Shown: one piece after another, positions 3,827-64,000 of the stretch | Layout: every line of letters starts with the position of its first letter | Position numbering within the stretch: position 1 is the first letter of the stretch | From: Prescottella subtropica | GTDB taxonomy: Bacteria; Actinomycetota; Actinomycetes; Mycobacteriales; Mycobacteriaceae | Assembly: GCF_005434945.1 (NCBI RefSeq) | Contig: NZ_SKCH01000001.1 | Span: forward strand, 248,001 to 312,000 | Direction of reading: 5' to 3' | DNA: 64,000 nucleotides | Notes under the pieces: generated by a model | Seen by the model: only the letters and a program-made list of their open reading frames with translations | What the model was told of the DNA's origin: nothing | The model's database searches: none | Program-made: the position numbers and the translations under genes

Positions 3827-5110
3827 ATGCGTTCTTTCACTACGCGTTCGCGGGTGGCGGTCGCGGCCTCGGCCGTCGCACTGCTCGCGCTCGCCGGCTG
3901 CTCGAGCGACAACGGGGGCGGCGGCAACACGGCCGACGCCGTCAAGCAGAACCTCGACGGCCGCGGCGCGATCTCCTTCGCGATGGGCAAGACCGACACC
4001 GACAAGCTGCAGCCGGTGATCGCCAAGTGGAACGCCACGCACCCCAACGAGCAGGTCTCCCTCAAGGAGCTCCCGGGTGAGGCCGACGACCAGCGCAACA
4101 AGCTCGAGCAGTCGCTGCAGGCCGGCAACGCCGACTACGACGTGATGGCGCTCGACGTGGTGTGGACCGCGGGCTTCGCCGCGAACGGCTGGCTGCAGCC
4201 GCTCGAGGGTGGTCTGGCGATCGACACCGCGCCGCTGCTGCCGGCCACCGTCGACTCCGCGACCTACCGTGGCACCCTGTACGCGGCCCCGCAGAACACC
4301 AACGCGCAGCTGCTGTACTACCGCACCGACCTGGTGCCGCAGGCGCCCGCCGACTGGAAGGCGCTCACCGACAGCTGCGCCACCGAGCAGGTCAAGACGG
4401 TGCCGGACTGCGTCGTCACGCAGCTCAAGCAGTACGAGGGCCTGACCGTGGCCACCACGCAGTTCATCAACTCGTGGGGCGGCGCGGTCGTCGGCGCCGA
4501 CGGCAAGACCCCCGAGGTCACGTCGCCGGAGGCGAAGGCGGGCGTGCAGGCGATGGTCGACGCCTACCAGTCCGGTGTGATCGCGAAGCGCTCCACCGGC
4601 TTCACCGAGGAGGAGACGAACCTCGCGTTCGTCGGCGGCGAGTCCGCGTACGCCTACAACTGGCCGTACATGTGGGACAACGCGGAGAAGACCGGCTCCA
4701 AGGTGCAGGGCAAGGTCGGTGTCGCGGCGATCGTCGGACCGAACGGCCCCGGCGCCTCCACCCTCGGCGGCTACAACAACGGCATCAACGTCTTCTCCAA
4801 GAACAAGGCGACCGCGCGTGACTTCATCGCGTTCGTCCAGAACGAGGAGAATCAGATGTCGTTCGCGGACGCGTCGTTCCCGCCGGTCCTCAAGTCGGTG
4901 TACGACGATGCGGCCCTGATCGCGAAGTACCCGTACCTGCCGGCACTGAAGTCGGCGCTCGAGAACGCGCAGCCGCGCCCGGTCACCCCGTACTACACGG
5001 CGATCTCCAAGGCCGTCCAGGACAACGCCAGCGCTGCCCTGAACGGCAAGGTCACCGTCGATCAAGCGACCAGCGACATGGCCGCGGCGATCACCAACGC
5101 GGCCAAGTAA
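3827..5110 (+). CDS. Carbohydrate ABC importer solute-binding lipoprotein
   Basis: 427 residues. Lipoprotein signal MRSFTTRSRVAVAASAV followed by lipobox LAGC (Cys about residue 25) and a Ser/Gly-rich linker. The mature part is a family 1 extracellular sugar-binding protein: ISFAMGKTDTDKLQPVIAKWN, YDVMALDVVWTAGFAANGWL, LYAAPQNTNAQLLYYRTDL, INSWGGAVVGADG and YNWPYMWDNAEK. Similar to trehalose/maltose binding proteins (LpqY, ThuE type). The start ATG at 3827 was chosen because it gives the signal peptide and has GGAAAGG upstream; the longer open frame has no export signal. First gene of a four-gene unit with two permeases and a small membrane protein. Confidence 0.92.
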   Translation: MRSFTTRSRVAVAASAVALLALAGCSSDNGGGGNTADAVKQNLDGRGAISFAMGKTDTDKLQPVIAKWNATHPNEQVSLKELPGEADDQRNKLEQSLQAGNADYDVMALDVVWTAGFAANGWLQPLEGGLAIDTAPLLPATVDSATYRGTLYAAPQNTNAQLLYYRTDLVPQAPADWKALTDSCATEQVKTVPDCVVTQLKQYEGLTVATTQFINSWGGAVVGADGKTPEVTSPEAKAGVQAMVDAYQSGVIAKRSTGFTEEETNLAFVGGESAYAYNWPYMWDNAEKTGSKVQGKVGVAAIVGPNGPGASTLGGYNNGINVFSKNKATARDFIAFVQNEENQMSFADASFPPVLKSVYDDAALIAKYPYLPALKSALENAQPRPVTPYYTAISKAVQDNASAALNGKVTVDQATSDMAAAITNAAK

Positions 5111-5145
5111 GCCGCCGAGCAACACGAGAGATCAGGTAACGCACG

Positions 5146-6237
5146 ATGGCTGACTCTGCTGAGCTGCGGCGAGCAGACGAGGCCCGCGCCGTGGTCGGGG
5201 TCGACGACCCCGACCACGGCGGTCGCGTGTCCGGGCCCGGCCCCGGCACCACGCGGACGGGTCACGACGACGAACCGACGACGATCACCCCGCACACGAA
5301 GCGGGACTTCCGTCCGATCTGGCTGATCGCGCCGACGATGGCGATCCTGGCCGTCGTCATCGTGTACCCGGTGATCCGTGCGGTGTACCTGTCGTTCCAG
5401 GCGAACAAGGGCATCGACCCGGCCACCGGCCGGTTCACCGAGGGCGGGTTCGCCGGGTTCAAGCACTACCTGCAGTGGCTCGTGCAGGACTGCGGCGCCG
5501 GTGCGGCCACGTGCCCGCCCGGCACCCTCGCCCACGACTTCTGGCCGGCGCTGTGGGTGACCCTGTTCTTCGCGGTCGTCACCGTCGCCGTCGAGGTCCT
5601 CCTCGGCCTGTGGATGGCCACCGTCATGGGCAAGACGTTCTGGGGCCGGTCCCTGCTGCGGGCGAGTGTGCTCATCCCGTGGGCCATCCCCACCGCGGTC
5701 ACCGCGAAACTGTGGTTCTTCATCTTCGCCGAGAACGGCATCGCCAACCGGCTGATGGGCACGTCCATAGCCTGGACCACCGACCCGTGGGCGTCGCGGT
5801 TCGCGGTCATCATCGCCGACGTGTGGAAGACGACGCCGTTCATGGCGCTGCTCATCCTCGCCGGCCTGCAGATGATCCCGAACGACGTCTACGAGGCCGC
5901 GAAGGTCGACGGGGCGAGCGCATGGCAGCGGTTCACGAAGATCACGCTGCCGCTGGTCAAACCGGCCCTGATGGTCGCGGTCCTGTTCCGTACCCTCGAC
6001 GTGCTGCGCATGTACGACCTGCCCGCGATCCTGTCCGGTACCTCCGGCGCCACCCCGAACACGACACTGTCGATCCTGGTGATGGCCGACATCCGGCAGG
6101 GCAACTTCCAGAGCGCGTCCGCGCTGTCCACCCTCATCTTCCTGCTGATCTTCGCGGTCGCGTTCGTGATGGTGAAGTTCCTCGGCGCCAACGCGGTCCG
6201 CACCCAGGACGAGCAGCGGAAGGGAGCCGACCACTGA
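5146..6237 (+). CDS. Carbohydrate ABC importer permease (MalF type)
   Basis: 363 residues. About 45 disordered residues, then six transmembrane helices beginning RPIWLIAPTMAILAVVIVYP, and the EAA loop EAAKVDGASAWQRFTKITLP around residues 248-267 that contacts the ATPase. Pairs with the next permease to form the channel. An unusually strong hairpin (5187-5221) lies inside the first 26 codons. Because codons 1-27 look like spacer, a GTG at 5227 preceded by GGCGG is a possible alternative start; that would leave the hairpin intergenic. Stop overlaps the next start (TGATG). Confidence 0.9.
   Translation: MADSAELRRADEARAVVGVDDPDHGGRVSGPGPGTTRTGHDDEPTTITPHTKRDFRPIWLIAPTMAILAVVIVYPVIRAVYLSFQANKGIDPATGRFTEGGFAGFKHYLQWLVQDCGAGAATCPPGTLAHDFWPALWVTLFFAVVTVAVEVLLGLWMATVMGKTFWGRSLLRASVLIPWAIPTAVTAKLWFFIFAENGIANRLMGTSIAWTTDPWASRFAVIIADVWKTTPFMALLILAGLQMIPNDVYEAAKVDGASAWQRFTKITLPLVKPALMVAVLFRTLDVLRMYDLPAILSGTSGATPNTTLSILVMADIRQGNFQSASALSTLIFLLIFAVAFVMVKFLGANAVRTQDEQRKGADH
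5187..5221 (+). promoter_or_regulatory. 17-bp perfect hairpin at the 5' end of the permease gene
   Basis: Bases 5187-5203 pair perfectly with 5205-5221 around a single central base (5204). The core arms are GTGGTCGGGGTCG and CGACCCCGACCAC. It begins 41 nt after the permease ATG. Placed just after the abundant binding-protein message, such a hairpin would be expected to slow 3'-5' decay of the upstream mRNA or limit translation and transcription of the permeases, as known for stem-loops between malE and malF in enteric bacteria. The role here is inference. Confidence 0.6.
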
Positions 6238-48118: not shown

Positions 48119-48158
48119 CGGGCAGTGCCCCGCACCGGACGGTGCGGGGCACTGCCCG
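48119..48158. terminator. Bidirectional terminator between kinase and mihF genes
   Basis: 18-bp perfect stem 48119-48136 with 48141-48158 (GGGCAGTGCCCCGCACC / GGTGCGGGGCACTGCCC plus one outer C-G pair), 4-nt loop. It starts 2 bp after the kinase stop and ends 12 bp before the mihF stop. Confidence 0.85.
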
Positions 48159-59240: not shown

Positions 59241-59267
59241 GCCCACCGGAACCGAACACATCGAAAC

Positions 59268-59286
59268 TAAACATAGCCTTACCTAT
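59268..59286. promoter_or_regulatory. Candidate iron-box (IdeR/DtxR site)
   Basis: TAAACATAGCCTTACCTAT agrees with the DtxR/IdeR consensus TTAGGTTAGGCTAACCTAA at 12 of 19 positions, the right half (TAGCCTTACCTA) being strong. It sits 60 bp before the methyltransferase-cupin pair in a short A/T-rich stretch. Confidence 0.45.
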
Positions 59287-59346
59287 TTCAAGATTTTCTC
59301 CTAGAGTCGATGCAGAGGGGGATCGACCCGAAGGAGGCTGATCACG

Positions 59347-60159
59347 GTGACGGACCACGGACAGGGTGCCGAGCCGGCACGTATGCCGCTCGCGGACCGC
59401 GATGCCACCCATCTGCCCGGACATTGGCTCCTGGCCCGGCTGGGAAAGAAGGTGTTGCGGCCGGGTGGGCGTGAGCTGACCGAACGCATGTTGGCCGACG
59501 CCGGTGTCTCCGGCGCCGACGTCGTCGAACTTGCGCCCGGCCTGGGACGGACGGCCCGGGAGATCGTCGCCCGCGGCCCGCGCAGCTATCTCGGTGTGGA
59601 GGCCGACGACGACGCGGTACGACTGGCGCAGTCCGCGGTCGGCGCGGCGGGCACGGTGGTGCGCGGGGAGACGTCGGCGACCGGTCGCAGCGCTGCGACG
59701 GCCGATGTCGTCGTGGGGGAGGCGATGCTCACGATGCAGACGGATCGGCACAAGCGGGAGATCGTCGAGGAGGCGCGGCGGGTGCTCCGGCCCGGTGGCC
59801 GGTACGCGATCCACGAACTGGCGCTGACACCGGACGATCTCGCCGACGACACCAAGGACGAGATCCGCACGGCACTGGCCCGGTCCATCAAGGTCAATGC
59901 GCGTCCGCTGACGGCCGACGAATGGCGGTCCCTGCTGGACGACAACGGTTTCCGTGTCGAGACGGTGTCGTTCGCGCCGATGGCGTTGCTGCGGCCGCGT
60001 CGACTGATCGCCGACGAGGGTGTCCGCGGGACGCTGCGGTTCGTACGAAATCTGCTGCGCGACGCCGACGCCCGCACCCGTGTGCTCGCCATGCGGCGCA
60101 CCTTCACGACGTATCGTGACCATCTGACAGCCATCGAGGTGATTGCGAGAAAGGCGTAG
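59347..60159 (+). CDS. SAM-dependent methyltransferase, iron-box associated
   Basis: 270 residues. LPGHWLLARLGKKVLRPGGR, motif I DVVELAPGLGRTAREIV, YLGVEADDDAVRLAQ, then ADVVVGEAMLTMQTDRHKRE and RVLRPGGRYAIHELAL, followed by a C-terminal helical part (FVRNLLRDADARTRVLAMRR). A small-molecule methyltransferase. GTG start with AAGGAGG 10 nt upstream. The cupin gene follows after two bases, and a candidate iron box lies upstream, suggesting iron-responsive expression of the pair. Confidence 0.85.
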   Translation: MTDHGQGAEPARMPLADRDATHLPGHWLLARLGKKVLRPGGRELTERMLADAGVSGADVVELAPGLGRTAREIVARGPRSYLGVEADDDAVRLAQSAVGAAGTVVRGETSATGRSAATADVVVGEAMLTMQTDRHKREIVEEARRVLRPGGRYAIHELALTPDDLADDTKDEIRTALARSIKVNARPLTADEWRSLLDDNGFRVETVSFAPMALLRPRRLIADEGVRGTLRFVRNLLRDADARTRVLAMRRTFTTYRDHLTAIEVIARKA

Positions 60160-60494: not shown

Positions 60495-62228
60495 TCACAT
60501 CCCGGGGGCGACCCAGCGAACTCCGGGGCCACGGCTCGGTCCGGAGGGATCCTTGACGGCGCGCCCGGACTGGCGCAGGTAGCGCAGCAGTGCAGTCACG
60601 TCCTTGCCGTCGGCGCCGGTCGCGGCGACGACGTCCCGGTTGGTGACGGCATCTCCGGCGCGGAGGCGTTCCTCGATCCAGTCCTGTACCGACACGGCCG
60701 CGATGTCGATCCCCGACGCGCCGCCCAGGCAGGTGCGAGCAGTCGAGGTCAGCACCCATTCGTCGCCGCGCTCGGTGACAGGCTGGACGATGTCGATATC
60801 GACGAGCCATTCCATCGTCTGCAACGCCTCGCTGGTTCCGGTCTGGGTCTGTGCGGTGACCTGCCGGAGCGTCATCAACGGCGCCTTGGACAGGTGTTTG
60901 AGCACGATGAGCGTGTTGACGGCGTCGATGGTGTCGGTTCCGTACCGGTGTCGGAGCCGGGCGAGGCCCGCGACGAACGCAGTATCGGGCCGGGAGGCGA
61001 CGAGCGTGACGCAGACGTGGAAGTCGTCCGCCTCGACTTCGGGCGCGGTGCGTCCGGTCGAGAGCATCGCCGACCACATTCGGTCGAATCCTCGGGACGA
61101 TTCCTCTGCGAGACCGAGCGCGCGCATCCCGGCCATGAGTCGATTGTTGCGCGGGACGGATTGGGTGGTCAGCAGGTGGTCGGATGTGACACCGAAGGGG
61201 AGGGCGCCCGGAGACCACAACTTCAGGACCCGGGGAGACTGGTCGACGACGACCGGAGAGGCCATCGACCAGTCCCGGTGGATCAGCGCGTTGGAGACCA
61301 CCTCGTCGACGGCCCTGTTCGGGAAGGCGGGCACCGCAACCTCTTGCCCTCCGGGCAGATTCACGCGGGCGATCTCCGCGTCCGCGTGTCGGCGCACCAG
61401 ATCCTGCACCTGATCGAACACGAGGACCAGCGCGCCACCGAGATCGGTGACGGCGGGTTCGCCACCGGGCACGGTGCGGCGCAGGTAGCGGACGGACACC
61501 ACCTCGGGTCGGTGCTGACCGAACAGCAGTTCGGCTGCGACGGTGAGTGATCCAGACGACGTCAGCAGTCCCAACTCGCGCAGCAGTGCGAGTGACTGTT
61601 CAGGGACGGCGGTGCTGTCGCCGACGGCGCGACGTTTCGCGGTGAGCAGGGTCCGGGCGCGAGTGATCGCAAGTGGATCGAGATCGTCCGCGGTGAGCAC
61701 GGAGGCGCGCGCTGTCATATCCGGGTTGGCGCGCGCGGAGTGCAAGTCGCGGCGTTCGTGTTCGGTGAGGGGGACACAGTCGGTTCCGATGCGCCGTGAG
61801 GCCGCCCCAGTGGTGCGCGAGTAGACGGACAGTCCGGCCGGGATGCGGACGAGGAGCAGTCGGTGCCCGTGGTAGTCGACGGCGCCGGCCTCCACCCGCA
61901 GGTTGGGGCGGGTCTTGTCGAACACCTTCCGTTCGATCCATTCGGCGTCGCGGTCGGTGCCGCTGAACGCGTCAGGTCCGGAACGCTTGTCGGACACCCC
62001 GAGGACGACGTGGGCGTCACCGCCGTCGCCGTTGGCGAAGCAGATGCACTCGTCGATGAGTGTCTCGGTGACCGCGGCGTCGGGGTTCCCGCGGCCGACG
62101 GGACGGCCGGGCACTCGAGCGGGATCCTCCTTGAAGTCCAGCACCGTGGATTCCTGTGAGTCGCCCGTGGCCCCGGCCCAGATCGCGTCGAGTGCGGTGT
62201 GGACCGTATCGGGGAGGGTGGGTGCCAT
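60495..62228 (-). CDS. AlbA_2/Schlafen-type ATP-binding protein (COG2865-like)
   Basis: 577 residues. N-terminal AlbA_2 domain (ESTVLDFKED, then CICFANGDGGDAHVVLGVSD, KTRPNLRVEAG, YSRTTGAASRRIG), a GHKL-type ATP-binding domain (AFPNRAVDEVVSNALIHRDW, LWSPGALPFGVTSDHLL, QSVPRNNRLMAGMRALGLAE), and a C-terminal part with winged-helix character (LTSTARTCL, RDVVAATGADGKDVTALLRY). Such proteins are treated as predicted regulators and Schlafen-domain members appear in defence loci. ATG fixed by TACCAT 6 nt upstream. A 38-bp palindrome covers the -35 region, so it is probably autorepressed. Confidence 0.85.
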   Translation of the reverse strand: MAPTLPDTVHTALDAIWAGATGDSQESTVLDFKEDPARVPGRPVGRGNPDAAVTETLIDECICFANGDGGDAHVVLGVSDKRSGPDAFSGTDRDAEWIERKVFDKTRPNLRVEAGAVDYHGHRLLLVRIPAGLSVYSRTTGAASRRIGTDCVPLTEHERRDLHSARANPDMTARASVLTADDLDPLAITRARTLLTAKRRAVGDSTAVPEQSLALLRELGLLTSSGSLTVAAELLFGQHRPEVVSVRYLRRTVPGGEPAVTDLGGALVLVFDQVQDLVRRHADAEIARVNLPGGQEVAVPAFPNRAVDEVVSNALIHRDWSMASPVVVDQSPRVLKLWSPGALPFGVTSDHLLTTQSVPRNNRLMAGMRALGLAEESSRGFDRMWSAMLSTGRTAPEVEADDFHVCVTLVASRPDTAFVAGLARLRHRYGTDTIDAVNTLIVLKHLSKAPLMTLRQVTAQTQTGTSEALQTMEWLVDIDIVQPVTERGDEWVLTSTARTCLGGASGIDIAAVSVQDWIEERLRAGDAVTNRDVVAATGADGKDVTALLRYLRQSGRAVKDPSGPSRGPGVRWVAPGM

Positions 62229-62234
62229 GTGTGG

Positions 62235-62240
62235 ATGGTA
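62235..62240 (-). promoter_or_regulatory. -10 element of leaderless AlbA_2 gene
   Basis: TACCAT on the minus strand, six bases before ATG 62228. Confidence 0.6.
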
Positions 62241-62245
62241 CCCAC

Positions 62246-62283
62246 AGTTGTTTCATAGTTGTTGAAACAACTATGAAACAACT
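62246..62283. promoter_or_regulatory. 38-bp palindromic operator of the AlbA_2 gene
   Basis: Arms 62246-62263 (AGTTGTTTCATAGTTGTT) and 62266-62283 are exact reverse complements with a two-base centre (GA). It sits 5 bp upstream of the -10 element and so covers the -35 region. The arm contains the repeated unit TTGTT, and TTGTTTCA/TGAAACAA form an inner inverted repeat with different phasing. The stretch is far more A/T-rich than the surroundings. A long RNA hairpin is an alternative, but the placement before the transcription start favours a protein site. Confidence 0.75.
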
Positions 62284-62371
62284 TGTCGGCGGCATGGCGT
62301 CGGGCGGCCTGCCGATACGGATCTACCGGCGGTGTAAGTGCAGGTAGGGATGCTTTTCCTATCGGGATGCG

Positions 62372-62393
62372 AGTTGTTTCGTAGTTGTCGAAC
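62372..62393 (+). repeat. Third copy of the palindrome arm
   Basis: AGTTGTTTCGTAGTTGTCGA followed by AC, matching the arm plus centre of the 62246 palindrome except two substitutions and a one-base difference. It lies 89 bp further, just after the end of the TetR gene, so the AlbA_2 promoter region (62229-62427) is bounded by related sites. Nothing else is recognised in this gap. Confidence 0.6.
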
Positions 62394-62427
62394 TGCCGGG
62401 CCGAGGTGATCGACCTCGTGGCTCCGC

Positions 62428-63042
62428 TCAGAGTTGTCCGCCGGTGACGTGCTGCAGGGCCTCGAGTCCGAGGCTGTTGCCGGTGGCGTTCGCGGGCAGG
62501 GCGGCGCCCCGTTCCGCGGCCCGTGCCGCGGACATCGCGGCGATCCAGGCCGCGAACACGGAGGCGGCCCGGGCGTGGGGGACGAGGGAATCGGCCGGGT
62601 GGTTCCCGCGCTCCACGGCATCGGTGATCAGTTGGGCCTGCACGCCCATCCAGCGCTGGAACACGTGTCCGGCGACGTCCGGTGGCCCCGAATCGAGGTG
62701 GGCGACGAGAGGATGCACGCGGGTGTCCGTGTTCTCGACCCGGTCGGTCCACCCGGCCGCGGTCATCGCCTGCAGCGCGTCCCGGACGGTGTCGACAACC
62801 GGTTCGTCGACGGGGCGTTCGAGAATCGCGTCGACGAACGCGTCGAGCCAACCGTCGAAGTAGGCGAGCAGGATCGCGGCCTTCGACGGGAAGTGGAGAT
62901 AGACGGTGCGCACCGCGACGTCGGCGGCCTCGGAGATGTTCTCGATCGAGGTCTCGGCGTAGCCGCGTTCGTCGAACAATGCGTCGGCGGCTGCCAGGAT
63001 CCGTGCCCGGGTGGAGGCTCTGCGGCGTTCCTGCCGGGTCAA
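62428..63042 (-). CDS. TetR family regulator (second)
   Basis: 204 residues from TTG 63042. Helix-turn-helix: RRRASTRARILAAADALFDE, RGYAETSIENISEAADVAVR, TVYLHFPSKAAILLAYFDGW. C-terminal ligand domain with an Ala-rich helix AASVFAAWIAAMSAARAAE. The TTG overlaps the stop of the membrane-protein gene (TTGA), so the two are translationally coupled and it likely regulates that gene. Longer upstream readings overlap the membrane gene and are rejected. Confidence 0.88.
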   Translation of the reverse strand: MTRQERRRASTRARILAAADALFDERGYAETSIENISEAADVAVRTVYLHFPSKAAILLAYFDGWLDAFVDAILERPVDEPVVDTVRDALQAMTAAGWTDRVENTDTRVHPLVAHLDSGPPDVAGHVFQRWMGVQAQLITDAVERGNHPADSLVPHARAASVFAAWIAAMSAARAAERGAALPANATGNSLGLEALQHVTGGQL

Positions 63043-63827
63043 GCCGGATCCGCCTGCGGCTTCGGGGCGAGCCTGGACACCAGCACGTTCCCGGCGACAC
63101 CCACGACGATCATGCCGATTCCGGCGGCGTCCGGCAGGGCATCGGTCACCCAGCCGAAGATGCCGGCGATCACGACGAACATCGGCACCCACGCGAACAG
63201 GGTGACGATCGACGGTGCGACTTCGATCTCCCCGCGGGTCGCCGCATCTGCGGCGCCGGCGTGGTCGGGGTAGAACTCGGTGAACGCGACCGCGAAGAAG
63301 ATCGCGGCCAGCGGCAGGATCCAGGCAGCCCAGAAGTTGCCCGGGTCGTCCAGGACCGCGTCGCCGAACAGTCCGGCCCCGGCGGAGAAGGCGAACGCAC
63401 CGGCCCACACGGACGAGATCGCATAGTTGATCTTGACGAACAGGGGTGTGTCCCAATACTCCTGCGGTGCCTGTTCTTTCGCATACGGCAGCGTGAACGG
63501 CCGCCGGACGAGAATCGTGACGACGACGAACAGTGCCAGGGCGGCGTTGGTGATCTCACCGGCCCACACCTCGATCCAGTCGACAGCACTGTCGGACGCG
63601 GCGAGACCCACGACGGCGAGCGCCGCGAAGAACAGCGCACCGAATGTGTCCAGGGCGTGGATCCTGACTCCGCGACGGGTGCCGAGCCACATCGTCAGCA
63701 GCGTCAGGCCCAGGGCGGCGCAGACGGCCTCCTCGAACCGGCCGGGCGCCGACAGGACTGCCATGAGAATCCACGGGGCGATACCCGACAGCGGTGACTT
63801 CAGGTACCCGTCGAGGAATTTCGTCAT
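63039..63827 (-). CDS. Polytopic membrane protein, unknown function
   Basis: 262 residues, about seven helices (GIAPWILMAVLSAPG, AVCAALGLTLLTMWLG, DTFGALFFAALAVVGLA, EITNAALALFVVVTILV, VWAGAFAFSAGAGLFGD, WILPLAAIFFAVAFTEFYPD, VTLFAWVPMFVVIAGIFGWV). Loop RRPFTLPYAKEQAPQEYWDT between helices is notable. ATG 63827 fixed by TACAGT 7 nt upstream. Coupled to the TetR gene. No family recognised. Confidence 0.75.
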   Translation of the reverse strand: MTKFLDGYLKSPLSGIAPWILMAVLSAPGRFEEAVCAALGLTLLTMWLGTRRGVRIHALDTFGALFFAALAVVGLAASDSAVDWIEVWAGEITNAALALFVVVTILVRRPFTLPYAKEQAPQEYWDTPLFVKINYAISSVWAGAFAFSAGAGLFGDAVLDDPGNFWAAWILPLAAIFFAVAFTEFYPDHAGAADAATRGEIEVAPSIVTLFAWVPMFVVIAGIFGWVTDALPDAAGIGMIVVGVAGNVLVSRLAPKPQADPA

Positions 63828-63834
63828 GCGGGAC

Positions 63835-63840
63835 ACTGTA
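63835..63840 (-). promoter_or_regulatory. -10 element of leaderless membrane-protein gene
   Basis: TACAGT on the minus strand, seven bases before ATG 63827. The remaining 160 bp to the right edge (63841-64000) show no supported gene. Confidence 0.55.
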
Positions 63841-64000
63841 TTCCGGGTGGAAGTGCACACGTACTACTTTTCGCGCAGTCGGGATCGAAAGTTTTCGAAC
63901 GGGCCGGGCACTGTTCGGCGGACGCCGATGCCGTCGTGCCGCCGCCGACAGAGGGTAGTGACGCACATCTCATTCGTGGCGTAGGTTGCATTCACGACGT

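Follow-up and report, generated by a model that had tools for sequence, protein, structure and literature searches.

A conserved half-site array on the promoter of a Schlafen-GHKL-winged-helix gene of Prescottella subtropica and its relatives is probably an operator read by the gene's own product

Proteins in which a Schlafen RNase is joined to a minimal histidine kinase and a winged helix have been linked to BREX and related loci, across at least 1017 taxa, in a paper that also cites a preprint dealing with anti-phage defence by bacterial Schlafens (PMC12839542). In the passages considered here, that paper deals with the defence linkage of these proteins, not with operators or autoregulation. 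The protein described here, from Prescottella subtropica, has the same three-part architecture as the BREX-linked proteins, and the acidic residues of its Schlafen domain stand at the aligned positions, as in the BREX-linked Schlafen RNases. In the mammalian Schlafen endoribonuclease rSLFN13 the active-site acids are E205, E210 and D248 (PMC5862951). The structural genomics entry 3lmm, which is the uncharacterised protein DIP2311 of Corynebacterium diphtheriae, matches our protein over its full length in a profile search (E 3.1e-136) and also supplies the top four fold matches, with 23-24% identity in the fold alignments. In the open-licence literature we found no paper on the regulation of 3lmm/DIP2311, and no account of operators, autoregulation, bracketing repeats or silencing for Schlafen-GHKL-winged-helix proteins.

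Autorepressors such as TetR, MarR and the toxin-antitoxin repressors have a palindrome that covers their own promoter. The locus described here shares this palindrome over its own promoter, but it is unlike these systems in that the DNA-binding, ATP-binding and putative effector parts of the protein are one chain, and in that the half-sites are present in many copies at a pitch of about 11 bp, with a sequence that varies between relatives. In RAYT/REP elements, integron cassettes and iteron plasmids, repeats flank a gene whose product may bind them, and short sites stand in tandem. The repeat-flanked gene and the tandem short sites are found here too; the repeats are, however, direct and mostly beside the gene, and our profile and fold searches of the protein found no recombinase, transposase, integrase or replication domain.

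The features of the window, by which we mean the whole 64,000-nucleotide stretch of P. subtropica DNA that was analysed, are as follows.

60495..62228, minus strand: gene for a 577-aa protein with SLFN_AlbA_2, HATPase_c_4 and predicted tandem winged-helix domains (from the ORF, profiles and AlphaFold)
61767..62153, minus strand: SLFN_AlbA_2 domain, residues 26-154 (PF04326), with acidic E26, D31 and D80
61002..61226, minus strand: HATPase_c_4 (GHKL-like) domain, residues 335-409 (PF13749)
60498..60698, minus strand: last winged helix, residues 511-577, as predicted from the secondary structure of the model and from covariation with the half-site
62235-62240, minus strand: -10 box TACCAT, 6 nt before the ATG
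62246-62283, no strand assigned: 38-bp palindrome of four AACAACT half-sites, -55 to -18 from the ATG
62246-62252, 62257-62263, 62266-62272 and 62277-62283: the half-sites of the palindrome
62372-62392, no strand assigned: distal direct pair, half-sites AGTTGTT at 62372 and AGTTGTC at 62383

Two sets of relatives were compared with this locus. The order-wide set (n=42) holds 40 homologs in 20-kb stretches, the window and L008, an 84% ortholog from the same genus; the 40 comprise two from a separate search and 38 taken from 64 places, the window's own not among them. The genus of G419, which named contigs with identical proteins show to be Corynebacterium, was also searched; the gene turned up at 66 places in 60 of its 242 genomes, and 48 of these places had their upstream regions read (L141 and L162 were left out as partial, and 16 others were not included). 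These 48, together with the window and L008, make up the 50 orthologs. The controls were 260 upstream regions of other genes, taken from the same stretches and from the window.

The initial annotation named an AlbA_2 and a GHKL domain in the protein, and the profile matches agree with it: PF04326 was matched with E 5.4e-10 (40.3 bits, against a curated cut-off of 25.3) and PF13749 with E 1.4e-11 (44.6 bits, against 26). The family is one that we take to be COG2865. In an AlphaFold model of the 577-aa protein (mean pLDDT 80.9, pTM 0.62), two C-terminal helical units can be read as winged helices, and helix 541-553 as the probable recognition helix of the last one, which also has a strand at 571-573 and, before it, a wing (about 561-570) that holds position 568. 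Just before HATPase_c_4, residues E309, N313 and H317 are kept in 50/50 orthologs.

In a profile alignment with the Schlafen structure 5yd0, residues E205, E210 and D248 of rSLFN13 align with E26, D31 and D80 of the window protein, the two numberings being matched by allowing for an offset of 13 residues in the chain of 5yd0. The protein thus appears by alignment to have the three-carboxylate Schlafen site, and its RNase activity is putative. Among the 50 orthologs, E26 is kept in 50, an Asp or Glu at position 31 in 50 and D80 in 48; among the 42 order-wide proteins, where the acids are less strictly kept, the counts are 37, 41 and 29. The GHKL and winged-helix parts are presumably not part of rSLFN13-N. 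No model of PADLOC-DB 2.0.0 matches the whole protein, and three pAgo-related models match it partially, the best with 5.7e-11 over residues 219-343. Of eight neighbours in the window, one was matched by PADLOC, a methyltransferase (59347-60159; partial mad2 match, E 3e-12, residues 42-208), which lies mostly inside a gap (59241-60026) in the homology with the related genome G005.

A 38-bp perfect palindrome had been reported upstream of the gene, and the DNA holds exactly that: the arms, 62246-62263 and 62266-62283, are 18 nt each and exact, with a 2-nt spacer, GA. Each arm consists of two tandem 7-bp half-sites (AGTTGTT at 62246 and 62257, AACAACT at 62266 and 62277) at a pitch of 11 bp, close to a single turn of the helix. 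In the palindrome one tandem pair of half-sites faces another, and this is one layout of an AACAACT array. A third copy had also been claimed, as a 20-of-22 match. The related site exists, at 62372-62392, with its start 126 bp from that of the palindrome and a 90% match over 21 nt, but over 22 nt the match is 19/22. When the 64-kb window was shuffled 20 times by mononucleotides, the longest perfect inverted arms were 10-12 nt, against 18 here, and the inverted-repeat score of the palindrome was 18, against a best of 14 among 278 control upstream regions. The single longer perfect inverted repeat in the window, with 19-nt arms near 48137, is a GC-rich hairpin behind a gene and is terminator-like. 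Beyond the locus, scans of the P. subtropica genome gave one extra weak site with 3 mismatches and one extra weak site with 1 mismatch, and a further scan for extra operator sites found none.

The promoter had been described as leaderless, which fits what we observed. The ATG occupies 62226-62228 on the minus strand, with the TACCAT box 6 nt 5' of it, and the palindrome ends (-18) 5 bp before this box. A TANNNT box stands 4-9 nt before the start in 44 of the 50 orthologs and in 10 of the 260 controls. Three Shine-Dalgarno-like words were looked for in front of the 50 ortholog starts, and no start had any of them. Taken together, the box near the start and the absence of these words are consistent with a leaderless promoter in the family.

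Whether close orthologs keep the palindrome was a test set beforehand, and the palindrome was kept at the identical position. L008 has a perfect palindrome with 18-nt arms at exactly -55 to -18; its arms carry matched changes (CATAG to CGTAG, CTATG to CTACG), and a distal half-site pair lies at -158/-148. Among 14 genomes of the genus, the gene is present in two and decayed in a third. The decayed copy L010 has a distal half-site triplet. At L032 (G007, about 4950-5480), a decayed gene copy matches residues 2-112 and 529-575 and retains a distal half-site triplet and a partial palindrome. When the arm pattern was searched with up to 2 mismatches in the 14 genomes, it was found in the two with the gene, in one with a remnant and as a single 2-mismatch hit in G004. 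DNA homology between the window and G005, the genome of L008, covers the gene and the palindrome as far as 62285 and sets in again at 63953, a point that in G005 is about 200 bp further along, which means that the TetR and membrane-protein genes of the window are not at that locus in G005. Either one lineage gained this segment (62286-63952) or the other lost it.

The array was also found with the gene in Corynebacterium. Four half-site words, derived from these same orthologs, were counted in the last 150 bp before the gene: one word occurs exactly two or more times in 50/50 orthologs and 2/260 controls, and at least three times in 48/50 and 0/260, counting exact copies throughout. In many of them tandem clusters stand instead of a single palindrome; 47 of the 50 exceed the control 95th percentile for tandem repeats and 24 for inverted ones. 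Half-site pairs are nearly confined to the gene: in 20 Corynebacterium genomes, all picked for carrying it, a family gene is no more than about 350 bp away from 45 of 51 ACAACT pairs and from 15 of 16 AGATAT pairs, and often has pairs on either side. Flanking proteins are rarely common to these loci. For 29 of them (1.5-kb flanks), 4 of the 370 pairs that are less than 65% identical share an upstream neighbour and 6 a downstream one, and a conserved partner gene of the kind seen in two-gene toxin-antitoxin operons was not found. In several cases, for example L116, L125, L142 and L145, the distal half-site cluster has a TGAnCTGC-like motif after it; at L142 the string CTGGGGAAATGTA, which many orthologs have before the -10 box, comes after the distal cluster, so that this cluster looks as though it were on a second promoter-like element.

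Repeats before the gene are also enriched across the order. A composition-weighted score, which was devised after the upstream sequences had been viewed and was applied to a set in which some of the 42 are close relatives, separated the 42 from the 260 controls for tandem repeats at 10-12 bp (p 4.5e-6), for inverted repeats (p 9.3e-12) and for their sum (p 1.7e-13), with 17, 12 and 16 of the 42, respectively, above the control 95th percentile. A simpler first repeat score was weaker (inverted p 2e-4; 8-mer counts p 0.47). A phylum-wide set was weaker as well (p 0.31 for tandem repeats, 0.003 for inverted ones and 0.005 for the sum), with 13 of 14 loci scored, L163 not being scorable and L175 being counted despite its wrong placement at a contig end. 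Beyond Corynebacterium, AACAACT arrays accompany family genes in three metagenome-assembled genomes: L269 (Arcanobacterium sp.), where they flank the gene on both sides; L212 (Actinomycetaceae), where they lie on both sides of a partial gene match; and L192 (Clostridia, 24% identity), where an array lies within about 100 bp before the match. In a scan of genome contigs for the half-site pattern, 13 of 120 pieces among the matches listed carry a family gene, and in plasmid and phage records identity to the protein is at most 30.5% and 32.1%, respectively, among the matches listed.

The half-site itself differs between relatives. By class, the 50 orthologs comprise 36 ACAACT, 9 AGATAT, 2 ACAATT and 3 GAAACT, the label of L129, a mixed array, having been set by hand from B to C. 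Distal and proximal clusters generally use one word; the exceptions are L124, with AGATAT in the proximal cluster only, and the mixed L129 and L161. Three genomes (G594, G488 and G546) have two copies of the gene with different half-site classes, and in G505, the fourth genome in which both copies were read, both are ACAACT by count, with one array mixed.

Two residues of the last winged helix change in step with the half-site. With classes B and C pooled, residue 568 is Arg in 11/11 AGATAT/ACAATT proteins; of the 39 others, 29 have Pro there, 8 Ser and 2 Ala. Residue 545, in helix 541-553, is Gly in 10 of the 11 and Thr or Ser in 39/39 others. In a scan of all 577 columns only 332 and 568 share no residue between the 11 and the 39, and 332 varies within the 11. 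A tree built from residues 1-412 groups ten of the 11 proteins in one clade and puts L160, whose branch is long and unsurely placed, outside that clade. The 30 columns most informative on half-site class are spread over all domains, with 6 in the last winged helix. A Mantel test that compared the similarity of operators with that of domains, on 38 of the 42 order-wide proteins (four short ones dropped) and pairs below 55% identity, favoured neither winged helix (partial r -0.017 and -0.065), and the GHKL domain gave a partial r of 0.190, reached by 2 of 500 permutations. The initial annotation had proposed the C-terminal winged helix as the binder. The covariation of 568 and 545 with the half-site argues for this proposal, whereas the Mantel test lent it no support.

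Behind the gene, 34 of the 48 Corynebacterium orthologs have a direct repeat of the upstream array region, as compared with 1 of 236 control genes. The repeat is 90-179 nt long and begins 1-58 nt after the stop codon. The test was strict (same strand, identity at least 70%, E<=1e-8) because at E<=1e-3 bracketing is noise in GC-rich DNA (17/40 homologs, 45/179 control genes). Neither the window nor L008 was found to have a downstream array copy, and 14 of the 48 Corynebacterium orthologs have none by the strict test. Order-wide, 6 of 40 homologs pass it, including L075, itself from G419. At L066 the downstream repeat contains the operator; at L065, L067, L084 and L093 the gene-flanking direct repeats lie upstream of the operator and may be duplicated flanking sequence rather than operator array.

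The two copies are alike above all at the half-sites. Over the 34 loci, half-site positions are 98.0% identical between the upstream and the downstream copy (1063/1085) and other positions 83.7% (2633/3146), counts that leave out half-sites gone from both copies and come from local alignments that may lean on half-sites. In the 20 copy pairs that are less than 88% identical, the values are 98.0% and 77.4%, and by locus 31 show the excess, 1 is equal and 2 show the reverse. The two copies within a locus are more alike than upstream copies between genomes in L148/L153 (0.94 and 0.96, against 0.86) and in L125/L132 (0.90 and 0.93, against 0.62, with genes 66% alike); L113/L114 and the L150 group show the opposite, with upstream copies more alike between genomes. 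At L180 (G605) and L178 (G534) a single repeat stands between left and right flanks that, at L147/L150 (G488, G546), enclose repeat, gene and repeat. No family gene was found within the 5.5 kb examined around these two single repeats, and G605 and G534 carry the gene elsewhere (L142 and L126). Further single arrays are L179 (G598), with a left flank like that of L146 and an unmatched right flank, and L181 (G612), near a contig end. The single-repeat loci may be sites before gain of the gene or scars of its loss.

We propose, with a probability of about 0.7, that the palindrome and the distal site are a dedicated autoregulatory operator that is read by the last winged helix of the protein itself, a reading built on sequence comparison. 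As is usual for self-regulating transcription factors, the operator lies on the gene's own promoter, is dedicated to it and is conserved with it. The last winged helix would read the 7-bp half-site (AACAACT in the window), whose copies, 11 bp apart, would present themselves on the same face of the DNA helix, possibly for cooperative binding, and the distal direct pair, about 12 turns upstream, might be tied in by looping. The bound protein would exclude RNA polymerase and so keep the gene low; we infer this repression because the operator overlaps the promoter. The hold might then be loosened, and a nuclease-type effector released, by ATP at the GHKL domain or by some trigger that the Schlafen domain encounters, a control and an output that are suggested by the domains of the protein.

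Other binders of the array can be imagined. The neighbouring TetR protein is a highly improbable one: TetR proteins often bind palindromes and its gene ends 35 bp beyond the distal site, but it is missing from the G005 locus, where the palindrome is still perfect, and this disfavours it as the binder. Moreover, the operator lies behind the TetR stop codon and on the AlbA_2 promoter, and the arrays at the 29 Corynebacterium loci have no common neighbour. A factor acting in trans from elsewhere in the genome is somewhat less improbable and still unlikely, given how rare paired half-sites are away from the gene in the 20 gene-carrying Corynebacterium genomes, and given that the half-site class differs among relatives, and between copies within one genome, in step with residue 568. 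The palindrome might instead work as an RNA hairpin or terminator and not as a DNA operator, since a perfect inverted repeat is able to fold and a terminator-like match on the plus strand overlaps 62218-62245. We consider this very unlikely, because a transcript from the putative leaderless promoter would start downstream of the palindrome and not contain it; the palindrome is also AT-rich, and tandem clusters replace the single palindrome in many orthologs.

Autorepression alone does not explain the downstream array copy in Corynebacterium. One possible but doubtful explanation is that the arrays are the ends of an excisable or mobile unit of repeat, gene and repeat, brought together by the protein, with control of the promoter being secondary. 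The bracketing in Corynebacterium, the retention of the downstream half-sites and the single-repeat loci L180 and L178 speak for it. Against it, the downstream copy is absent from the window, from L008 and from 14 Corynebacterium orthologs, the protein is without a detectable recombinase domain, among close relatives the gene stays at one locus, and in several groups the two copies have diverged where they stand. A lone repeat can also be explained by ordinary recombination between direct repeats, and both genomes with such a locus hold the gene at another place. An equally tentative explanation is a single-gene unit that brackets itself: the protein would bind its own changeable half-site arrays on both sides of the gene and hold the ends together, which would silence the gene, and gain or loss would proceed through the repeats. 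Were this so, the window could, just as tentatively, be regarded as the form with the promoter-side array only.

If the protein does read its own array, as our preferred reading of an autoregulatory operator has it, then a single chain would be repressor, ATP-responsive part and effector at once, and the changeable half-sites would offer a ready system for working out a winged-helix recognition code. The bracketing repeats, if they are functional, would be a novel means of packaging and silencing a single gene and of losing or moving it.
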